Shown here: piece after piece, positions 61,195 to 64,000 of the stretch
How the letters are laid out: each line of letters begins with the position of its first letter
Position numbering within the stretch: the first letter of the stretch is position 1
IMG/VR virus record: IMGVR_UViG_3300027911_000001
Coordinates: 100,831 to 164,830 of that record
Direction: 5' to 3' (one strand)
Origin: a virus
DNA: 64,000 nt
The notes under the pieces: generated by a model
What the model saw: only the letters and a program-made list of their open reading frames with translations
Database searches by the model: none
What the model was told of the DNA's origin: nothing
Program-made: the position numbers and the translations under genes

Positions 61195-61221
61195 TTGACA
61201 TTTAAACACTTATGATATAAT
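61195..61221 (+). promoter_or_regulatory. Promoter of the NAD operon
   Basis: TTGACA (61195-61200), 15 bp spacer, TATAAT (61216-61221). The -10 lies within TTATGATATAA (61210-61220), the motif A sequence. The 15 bp spacing is short for sigma70, so the site may respond both to the host sigma70 and to the phage late factor. Confidence 0.6.
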
Positions 61222-61294: not shown

Positions 61295-62077
61295 ATGATC
61301 TATGTAAGCGGAGAACCGCTCAGTCTAACCACCTTCCCAGACAACACGTCCCAGTGTTGGAAACTTCCAGACCATATGCTATCTAGCCCATTCGTAATGA
61401 TTCGTTGGGATTATTCCAATGAAGCTGAAGTTATGCACTTGGCTCAATTAAAACAGCTCTTAGATCATTATAAGGTCGATGCCTGTCTGACTATCAATTA
61501 TCTTCCTTATGCTAGGCAAGATAAGGAAATTGATAACAATGCTACATTCGCACTTAGAACATTCGCTCATATTATAAATTCTTTACATTTTAAATTGATT
61601 ACCATAATGGATCCACATAGCAAAGTCGCTTTGGATTTAATCCATAATTCTGCAGCTACATACCCTATAGTAAAATTGCAAGAGACTATTCAGAAAGTGA
61701 GGGCAGATCTGTTATGCTATCCAGATAGGGGCGCACTTGCCAAATACACTAAAGAGTACGATTTAGAGCTGGGATATATCAAACATATATATGGTGAAAA
61801 AGTAAGGGATCAACTTACTGGAAATATTACAAGTTATAAAGTTATCGGTAACGCTACCGACAAAAATGTCTTGATTGTAGATGACATTTGCGATGGCGGT
61901 GCTACCTTTAAATTACTAGCCAAAGACCTGTTGGCAGCTGGAGCAAGAAGCGTGTCGCTTTTTGTAACCCATGGAATCTTCTCGCGTGGTGTGAGAGTTC
62001 TATTCGATTCAGGTATCGATCGTATTTTTACTAAAGATGGTGAAATAAGTAAACAGTACGATCGTCAACAATTCTAA
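61295..62077 (+). CDS. PRPP-synthetase-like enzyme, candidate ADP-ribose pyrophosphate synthetase (NARP1 Adps)
   Basis: 260 residues, shorter than ribose-phosphate pyrophosphokinases (~315). Prs landmarks: NYLPYARQDKE (ATP site, 68-78), IMDPHSK (104-110) and the PRPP loop VLIVDDICDGGATFKL (192-207). The gene is followed 14 bases later by a NAMPT-like gene. In the described phage pathway NARP1, such a Prs homologue puts pyrophosphate on ADP-ribose, and the NAMPT homologue adds nicotinamide to give NAD+. The pairing and order support that role; a plain PRPP synthetase feeding NAMPT (making NMN) is the alternative, but no NMN adenylyltransferase is visible here. Ribosome site AAGGAG. Confidence 0.85.
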   Translation: MIYVSGEPLSLTTFPDNTSQCWKLPDHMLSSPFVMIRWDYSNEAEVMHLAQLKQLLDHYKVDACLTINYLPYARQDKEIDNNATFALRTFAHIINSLHFKLITIMDPHSKVALDLIHNSAATYPIVKLQETIQKVRADLLCYPDRGALAKYTKEYDLELGYIKHIYGEKVRDQLTGNITSYKVIGNATDKNVLIVDDICDGGATFKLLAKDLLAAGARSVSLFVTHGIFSRGVRVLFDSGIDRIFTKDGEISKQYDRQQF

Positions 62078-62091
62078 TTATAGGAGATTAT

Positions 62092-63570
62092 ATGAAGAAT
62101 TTATTGTCTACGTTATTGTGTGATTTTTATAAGATTTCGCATCGGCTTATGTATCCAGAAGGAATGGAAATCTGCTATTCTACTTGGACCCCTAGAGCTT
62201 CCCGCATGAAAGATGTCAATGAAGTTGTAGTGTTTGGTAATCAAGCTTTTGTTAAAGAATATTTAGTTGAGTTTTTTAACAAGAATTTTTTTGGCATTCC
62301 TAAAGAAAAAATGGCCTCAGACTATAGACGTATTATTAAAAATACACTAGGCGTCGCCAATCCAGATAGCAGTCATCTGGAAGCTCTTCATGATTTAGGA
62401 TATCTACCTTTATTGGTGAAAGCTATCCCAGAAGGAACCAAAATCCCTCTTAGGACGCCAGCCCTTACTATACAAAATACGGATAAGCGCTTTTTCTGGT
62501 TAACCAATTACATTGAGACTTTGATTTCTTGTGAGCTTTGGGGAGCTTATACAGCAGCAACAATTGCCTATGAATATCGTAAGATTTTAGATAAAGCTGC
62601 TATGGAAACCGTAGGTAATACAGAATTCGTACAATTTCAAGGTCACGATTTCTCTATGCGAGGAATGTTAGGACTTAAGGGCGCTCTTAAAACAGGCATG
62701 GGACATCTTGTTAGTTTTGCTGGAACAGATACCATCCCCGCAATTCTCGGGGCCGAATACTACTATGGAGCCAATGTTGAAAAAGAGCTTGTTGGAACTA
62801 GTATTCCCGCTACTGAGCATTCCATCCAATGCGCTTATGGCGACGATATGGCTTATTTAGAAAATATACTCAGCAGAGTACATTCTTCAGGTTTCGTTTC
62901 TATTGTTAGTGATGGCTATGACTTTTGGGATGTAATCGGCAGAGTTATTCCTGCTCTAAAAGATAAAATTATGGCTCGTAATGGCGGTCCATTAGGAGAT
63001 AGAGTAGTCATTCGTCCGGACTCGGGAGATCCTGTTCTAATTATCTGTGGAGACCCAGAAGGTAAAACGGAGTTGGAGCGTAAAGGTGCAGTTGAAGCTC
63101 TTTGGGATATCTTTGGCGGAACCGTAACTGAAAAAGGCTACAAACTTCTCGATTCTCATATTGGGCTAATCTATGGGGATGCTATTACTCTCAATAGAAC
63201 CAAAGAAATTATGACCAGACTAGAGAAGAAGGGGTTTGCCTCTATCAATGCGGTTTTGGGAATTGGGTCCTATACTTACCAGTATAACACTAGAGATACT
63301 TTTGGATTTGCTCTCAAGAGCACTTTATGTGTGATAAACGGTGAAGAAAAGCAGATCTTTAAGAATCCTAAGACTGACGATGGCATTAAGAAAAGCCAAA
63401 AAGGTAAGGTTCATGTCTATAAAAATGGCAGCAAGATTACATGGACAGATGGTCATGGTTTAGACTCTGACCTTTCAACTGACATGCTCCAACCTATTTT
63501 TAAAGACGGTAAACTTCTAAACGAGGTAACGTTCTCAGAAATCAGAGAAAGGCTAAAGAATCAAAAATGA
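62092..63570 (+). CDS. Nicotinamide phosphoribosyltransferase-like enzyme, candidate NARP1 Namat
   Basis: 492 residues, the size of NAMPT. Motifs: DFSMRG (186-191), SFAGTDT (208-214), PATEHS with the key His243 (239-244), VSDGYDFWD (272-280), IRPDSGDP (307-314) and a late FGFALKST segment. These correspond to the nicotinamide and phosphoribosyl sites of NAMPT. In NARP1 the substrate is ADP-ribose pyrophosphate instead of PRPP; which one this enzyme prefers cannot be read from the sequence. Ribosome site AGGAGA. It overlaps the macrodomain gene by ATGA, so all three are made together. Confidence 0.88.
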   Translation: MKNLLSTLLCDFYKISHRLMYPEGMEICYSTWTPRASRMKDVNEVVVFGNQAFVKEYLVEFFNKNFFGIPKEKMASDYRRIIKNTLGVANPDSSHLEALHDLGYLPLLVKAIPEGTKIPLRTPALTIQNTDKRFFWLTNYIETLISCELWGAYTAATIAYEYRKILDKAAMETVGNTEFVQFQGHDFSMRGMLGLKGALKTGMGHLVSFAGTDTIPAILGAEYYYGANVEKELVGTSIPATEHSIQCAYGDDMAYLENILSRVHSSGFVSIVSDGYDFWDVIGRVIPALKDKIMARNGGPLGDRVVIRPDSGDPVLIICGDPEGKTELERKGAVEALWDIFGGTVTEKGYKLLDSHIGLIYGDAITLNRTKEIMTRLEKKGFASINAVLGIGSYTYQYNTRDTFGFALKSTLCVINGEEKQIFKNPKTDDGIKKSQKGKVHVYKNGSKITWTDGHGLDSDLSTDMLQPIFKDGKLLNEVTFSEIRERLKNQK

Positions 63571-64000
63571 GTAAAATAACTACAATTAAAGGGAATCTAT
63601 TCGATGCGCCAAAGGGATCCATTATAATTCATGCATGCAATTGTAAGGGTGTATGGGGATCAGGTATTGCAGCACAATTTGCGAAAAGATTCCCTAAAGC
63701 TAGGGAAGTGTATTCTAAGCTATGTTCTGAAAAGGGAAGCTCCCTACTTGGCACATGTTTACTAATTCCTGCTGGCGATTATATCATTGGATGTCTGTTT
63801 ACCTCTAAAAACTATGGGAGCTATGTTGATAGTCCCCAGAAGATTCTAGAAAGTACCAGAAAAGCTGTAAGGGATATGATTGGCCAAAATTTGGACGACA
63901 GACCTATGCATATGTGTAAGATAAACTCAAATCTATTTAAAGTACCGTGGGGAGATACCAAATCTGTGCTAAAAGAGTTCGATAAGGAATTCACGGTATA
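63567..64000 (+). CDS. Poa1-type macrodomain (ADP-ribose-1''-phosphate phosphatase-like), cut by the window end
   Basis: At least 144 residues; the frame reaches the right edge with the family's C-terminal motif already present, so only a few residues are missing. Macrodomain features: KGNLFDAP near the start (Asp13), IHACNCKGVWGSGIA (H22 to A35) with the Asn and the glycine loop, LFTSKNYGS (78-85), and KINSNLFKVPWGDT (118-131). The order and wording closely match yeast Poa1p, which removes the 1''-phosphate of ADP-ribose-1''-phosphate. The ATGA coupling to the NAMPT-like gene suggests it serves the same NAD pathway. ADP-ribose binding or protein de-ADP-ribosylation are alternatives. Confidence 0.85.
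   Translation, partial: MSKITTIKGNLFDAPKGSIIIHACNCKGVWGSGIAAQFAKRFPKAREVYSKLCSEKGSSLLGTCLLIPAGDYIIGCLFTSKNYGSYVDSPQKILESTRKAVRDMIGQNLDDRPMHMCKINSNLFKVPWGDTKSVLKEFDKEFTV

Follow-up and report, generated by a model that had tools for sequence, protein, structure and literature searches.

A viral NARP1 operon with a coupled Poa1-like macrodomain gene, a candidate ADP-ribose feeder for NAD+ reconstitution

The window analyzed here is a 64,000-nucleotide stretch that forms the terminal part of a bacteriophage record of 164,830 nt, and three genes lie at its 3' end. They encode an Adps-like ADP-ribose pyrophosphate synthetase (61295–62077, 260 aa), the nicotinamide ADP-ribose transferase Namat (62092–63570, 492 aa), and a Poa1-like macrodomain (63567–64000 and a further 10 nt up to record nt 109; 147 aa overall). 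All three are plus-strand ORFs in the ORF list, and Pfam and PHROGs assigned them to the families Pribosyltran/ribose-phosphate pyrophosphokinase, NAPRTase/NAMPT, and Macro, respectively. A gap of 14 nt separates the Adps and Namat genes, and the Namat and macrodomain genes overlap in the sequence ATGA, exactly as the first-pass annotation had described this plus-strand three-gene operon. Within the window the macrodomain ORF comprises 144 aa and is open at its end. The 3' terminal 99 nt of the record are identical to its 5' 99 nt, and this exact end repeat indicates that the record, which IMG/VR classes as linear, probably represents a full circular assembly of ~164.7 kb. The macrodomain gene is therefore completed across the join, where four further codons give the ending KEFTVYDF and a stop. 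Good ribosome-binding-like sequences precede the Adps and Namat genes, and minus-strand genes flank the operon on either side, so that the three genes look like a self-contained plus-strand cassette that may be carried on a single transcript. A promoter-like site, TTGACA-N15-TGA-TATAAT, was located by sequence match on the plus strand at 61195–61221, 73 nt 5' of the Adps start; the chance expectation for a perfect TTGACA-N15-TATAAT in the window is 0.13. A second TTGACA-N15-TATAAT lies on the plus strand at record nt 111–137 (L277), 1 nt past the macrodomain stop, and a scan of all but ~830 nt of the genome gave no third TTGACA/TATAAT match with a spacer of 14–18. The two promoter-like sites, both plus-pointing, bracket the three-gene operon.

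The Adps-like protein matched phrog_619 in PHROGs (E 3e-65), and its identity was 38% to the Adps of Bacillus phage SPbetaL1 and 35% to that of ICP1, compared with 20% to E. coli Prs. It contains the PRPP-type loop VDDICDGGAT, in which the 5-phosphate loop reads DGGAT rather than the DTGGT of E. coli Prs; this loop is variable among 99 viral Adps. Its neighbor was 61% identical to SPbetaL1 Namat, and its PDB match (E 1e-200) was to 9W5X/9W5W, which are the SPbetaL1 Namat structures with nicotinamide and NAD+. The mark reported to occur only in Namat is the clamp-helix motif GSX-phi-X-phi-X-phi-TRD, whose third and seventh positions are aromatic (PMC12774641). Alignment to this published motif placed GSYTYQYNTRD at residues 392–402 of the window protein (63265–63297, plus strand), in which both aromatics are present as Y394 and Y398. 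Most of the 130 Namat relatives that we collected carry the motif in some form. KVP40 NadV lacks it and shows GGGLLQQLDRD at the same place, and this enzyme is of the PRPP-using type both in the classification of PMC12774641 and by earlier work. The window residue R38 aligned with the clamp residue Arg40 of SPbetaL1, and the SPbetaL1 catalytic residues F189, D215, and R306 correspond to F187, D213, and R308; the clamp Arg and the catalytic residues were tested in that same study. The clamp motif, the clamp Arg, the 61% identity to Namat, and an adjoining Adps homologue whose identity to phage Adps exceeds that to E. coli Prs support the assignment of the pair as a predicted NARP1 system, which upholds the NARP1-like pair of the first-pass annotation.

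The macrodomain scored 42.9 bits against the Pfam Macro model, for which the curated cut-off is 22, and the macrodomain fold was matched as well. Its AlphaFold model (pLDDT 92.7) matched yeast Poa1p with ADP-ribose first, followed by DarG and TARG1, and Poa1p was also the best solved sequence match (E 1e-29). Poa1p is thus the nearest family by both sequence and predicted fold, with a TM score by query of 0.84–0.93 and an identity of 36–39%. The corresponding PDB entries, 6LFQ–6LFU, were deposited as ADP-ribose-1''-phosphate phosphatase. The window protein has H22, V29, and F124 at the positions mutated in these entries (H23A, S30A, and F152A, the last from 6LFU). Active-site residues of Poa1p have been named as H23, N26, S30, and G33 (PMC12846349), and two of these four are kept, as H22 and N25. 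The equivalents of His23, Asn26, and Phe152 are therefore present, while those of Ser30 and Gly33 are replaced by Val29 and Ser32. From this resemblance, the protein could plausibly act as a phosphatase or deacylase.

The frequency of this gene arrangement was evaluated with 130 viral loci collected by Namat-based searches, which are unbiased towards macrodomains, and which were reduced to 107 by clustering at 85% Namat identity. The first-pass annotation had called for such a count in phage genomes and had named the absence of the macrodomain beside other NARP1 pairs as one refutation of its reading; 18 of the 107 dereplicated loci have a macrodomain at most 3 kb from the pair, touching or inside it in 13 of them, and the gene occurs with NARP1 in cultured phages as well. 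The macrodomain is the commonest accessory family adjoining viral NARP1. Whole-record Pfam searches of the dereplicated set, with records treated as independent, gave 12 macrodomains within 3 kb of NARP1 and 10 far from it, against 1.57 expected nearby, which corresponds to a 15.6-fold enrichment (binomial p 5.6e-9). The association is hence not due to chance. Its placement varies, being 3' of Namat, 5' of Adps, or between the two genes, as in L030, L216, L258, RYC, and Skimmer. Fifteen label changes were counted on the Namat tree, of which at least 10 are forced by well-supported branches, and the macrodomains near NARP1 are spread across both halves of the macrodomain tree. This spread indicates that macrodomains were recruited to NARP1 more than once and from several lineages, in a count that does not separate gain from loss. 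The two macrodomain subtypes were told apart by the tree, as separate HMMs for them returned the same matches. Approximately 83% of the viral NARP1 loci have no macrodomain nearby, and the pair therefore does not need one.

Accessory genes near NARP1 differ strongly among relatives. In the clade of the window, the slot 3' of Namat holds a macrodomain in the window, L009, and L021, NADAR in L012, NADAR and a macrodomain in L013, and NADAR, a nucleoside-deoxyribosyltransferase-like gene, and a macrodomain in L005; it is empty of these genes in L003 and L069. Among 79 bacterial NARP1 loci, NADAR was found in 18, metallophosphoesterase in 19, ADP-ribosylglycohydrolase in 11, and macrodomain in 8. 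This bacterial set includes Paenibacillus foliorum (L142), whose NARP1 has been shown to be active (PMC12774641). A property common to the macrodomain, NADAR, and ADP-ribosylglycohydrolase families is the release of ADP-ribose, which is the substrate of Adps. No NADAR gene was detected in the genome of the present virus. Chromosomal operons that join NARP1 with NADAR, ADP-ribosylglycohydrolase, macrodomain, metallophosphoesterase, and Nuc_deoxyri_tr2 were observed in Bacteroidota (L172, L185, L195, L205, L208, L210, and L211), and operons of the same kind in Paenibacillus (L143 and L144); Pedobacter soli (L210) encodes an ADP-ribosylglycohydrolase–NADAR fusion. Nuc_deoxyri_tr2 (PF15891) occurs inside NARP1 operons in 6/107 viral and 6/79 bacterial loci (e.g., L005:9950-10423, L015, L224, and L261), and its product is possibly a further enzyme of ADP-ribose derivatives. 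A small HAD-like protein with no confident Pfam match often lies between Adps and Namat (14/107 viral and 9/79 bacterial loci; L026, L029, L035, L060, L075, L077, and others), and it was never found with a macrodomain in the same locus among the 107 viral ones. RyR/RyDEP was considered as a frequent alternative accessory and rejected, as 49 viral NARP1 records gave a single match, distant from the pair (G051).

Ten NARP1 loci of named phages, chosen by an even spread of Adps matches, were inspected, and a macrodomain was near three of them and near none of the other seven. Vibrio phages RYC and Skimmer have the order Adps–macrodomain–Namat, and Pseudomonas phage HHBS18_1 has its macrodomain two genes past Namat; two of these three macrodomains score at or just above the Pfam cut-off and that of RYC just below. 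The gene is ~10 kb off NARP1 in Felix-O1-like phages (e.g., phiWec172). Myxococcus phage Mx1, which encodes the nearest full-length macrodomain among named phages, has no NARP1 within 6 kb of it. The SPbetaL1 system (PMC12774641) shares with the window the gene pair and its order, the Namat clamp motif, the clamp Arg, and the catalytic residues, whereas the loci of SPbetaL1 and ICP1 lack a nearby macrodomain. The three-gene form itself is not new, since the annotation of Rheinheimera phage Barba19A already contains it (gp033–gp035; PMC6715854). There the macrodomain, Adps, and Namat genes abut as well, but the macrodomain comes first, and the authors read the genes as nucleotide salvage and host signaling. 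Pseudomonas phage Adele (PaAdele_024, _022, and _020; PMC12846349) also has NARP1 with a Poa1p-like macrodomain downstream, and both a feeder role and the comparison with Poa1p were speculated for this one phage in December 2025. In the related HHBS18_1, small genes split the three, while the Namat and macrodomain genes of the window overlap; the window macrodomain is moreover of the Poa1-like VWGSG type, unlike that of Adele. Iyer et al. suggested soluble derivatives of ADP-ribose as the targets of macrodomain and NADAR proteins in phages, and pointed out that NADAR occurs close to genes of NAD+ salvage (PMC9503650). In the open-access papers searched, to which the first report of NARP1 does not belong, we found no earlier measure of the macrodomain–NARP1 association or demonstration of repeated recruitment, and likewise no earlier description of bacterial NARP1 operons with several ADP-ribose-releasing families.

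These observations are best read as a NARP1 module for NAD+ reconstitution to which a feeder enzyme is coupled, and we assign this reading a probability of roughly 0.58. Host defenses would split NAD+ into nicotinamide and either ADP-ribose or one of its derivatives. The macrodomain, as a third enzyme of the pathway, would hydrolyze derivatives that carry a blocking group on the 1'' position or close to it, such as ADP-ribose-1''-phosphate, acetyl-ADP-ribose, and other adducts, to give free ADP-ribose. This would then be pyrophosphorylated by Adps with ATP, and Namat would join the product with nicotinamide to form NAD+. We infer the catalysis by the macrodomain, its substrate, the flow of its product into Adps, and the role in counter-defense from the gene order, the NARP1 signatures, the Poa1p-like fold, the non-random and repeated association, and the other ADP-ribose-releasing families. 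The reading is also favored by a proven parallel in mycobacteriophage DyoEdafos, where the accessory enzyme RyDEP within the NARP1 operon converts 2'cADPR into ADP-ribose, from which NAD+ is made via Adps and Namat (PMC13232231). That feeder differs in being an RyR-domain glycosidase for 2'cADPR and 3'cADPR rather than a macrodomain. ADP-ribose-1''-phosphate would be the likeliest single substrate, at less than even odds. It is attractive because it is what RES-type toxins produce from NAD+, as reported for NatT (PMC11535050) and MbcT (PMC8883491), and because Adps should need a free 1''-OH. Against this variant, RES-type NAD+ phosphorylases have not been linked to phage defense, and deletion of NatT caused no change in phage susceptibility (PMC11535050). 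The feeder reading as a whole is opposed by the loss of two of the four named Poa1p residues and by the many viral loci that have no macrodomain, and a common operon does not prove a common pathway. An origin of the macrodomain substrate in tRNA repair within this genome was dropped, since KptA/Tpt1 had no match in the virus record.

The strongest competing explanation, which we consider unlikely but worth keeping in view, is that the macrodomain works independently of the pair as a counter-defense hydrolase or a signal sponge, which would strip ADP-ribose off DNA, RNA, or protein or act on Thoeris-type signals. It would then adjoin NARP1 since both defeat NAD+-based immunity, and its ADP-ribose product would be unimportant to Adps. 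DarG and TARG1, the fold matches next after Poa1p, both act on ADP-ribosylated macromolecules, and phage macrodomains have been proposed to act mainly against soluble ADP-ribose signals and toxins (Iyer et al. 2022, PMC9503650). They are also common far from NARP1, with 2,561 records matching a second type. However, a macrodomain gene that overlaps Namat by ATGA, or that sits between Adps and Namat, is coupled more tightly than a general defense island requires, and NARP1 operons repeatedly contain several unrelated families that release ADP-ribose.

PRPP-like breakdown to a cyclic phosphate or 1''-phosphate is the analogy behind a second, improbable alternative, which is metabolite repair. 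Unstable ADP-ribose pyrophosphate would decay into ADP-ribose cyclic phosphate or 1''-phosphate, and the macrodomain, acting alongside the metallophosphoesterase in bacterial operons, would restore ADP-ribose and stop the leak. This would account for the metallophosphoesterase in 19 of the 79 bacterial operons, and for macrodomains with NARP1 in phages and chromosomes regardless of host defense. Consistent with it, the cyclic phosphate product of Tpt1 is acted on by Poa1p and MacroD (PMC8883491). Literature on the breakdown of ADP-ribose pyrophosphate was however not found, neither gene is near most viral NARP1 loci, and NADAR and ADP-ribosylglycohydrolase are ill-suited to phosphate repair. 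It is very improbable that the pair is an ordinary PRPP synthetase and NAMPT producing NMN: the fold families are indeed those of Prs and NAMPT, and Namat retains PRPP-dependent NMN activity in vitro (PMC12774641), but we dropped this assignment in view of the clamp motif and Arg, the altered 5-phosphate loop, and the closer similarity of both proteins to proven Namat and phage Adps. That the macrodomain is an unrelated neighbor placed by phage gene shuffling is hardly credible, since the variability of accessory genes around NARP1, which would suit it, is outweighed by the enrichment of macrodomains and their first rank among the accessory families.

The feeder reading can be extended, tentatively and at somewhat worse than even chances, to NARP1 as the last stage of a broader system for recovering ADP-ribose. 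Adps and Namat would be combined with interchangeable releasing enzymes, namely macrodomain, NADAR, ADP-ribosylglycohydrolase, RyDEP, and perhaps the nucleoside-deoxyribosyltransferase-like protein and metallophosphoesterase. In phages and bacteria, ADP-ribose originating from toxins, from signals, and from modified macromolecules would in this way be recycled into NAD+, as would the ADP-ribose-1''-phosphate produced by RES-type NAD+ phosphorylases, which NARP1 alone should not use. If this is true, NARP1 would be a general sink that returns many ADP-ribose products of immunity and toxins to NAD+, beyond the reversal of NADases, and the accessory gene carried by a phage would predict which defenses it survives. 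Orphan genes for macrodomains, NADAR, and ADP-ribosylglycohydrolase on bacterial chromosomes would likewise gain a role.

A noncoding stretch of ~230 nt with a closing helix was observed directly 3' of the macrodomain gene and behind the second promoter-like site, at nt ~138–372 of the record (G000; L277:138-372). A search of viral contigs with a 16-nt core gave 71 loci. This structured RNA family comprises at least 28 distinct phage sequences of ~160–260 nt, from this search and the other loci of the analysis together, which share a 3' core and a seven-pair closing helix; homologues include L121:7300-7530, L012:1-262, L350, L354, L360, and L362. Their cores are GCGGCGUGGAAAGCUG and AGYCAGAGURGCGNCUGGCC. 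An Rfam search with this RNA gave no match at E up to 1. The closing helix covaries strongly, as most pairs vary on both sides and each is paired in at least 24 of the 28 sequences; the selection of members by sequence cores inflates the conservation of the cores but not this covariation. Only two other members (L012 and L121) are near NARP1 or macrodomain-plus-NAMPT loci, and the RNA is therefore a general phage RNA rather than a part of NARP1.
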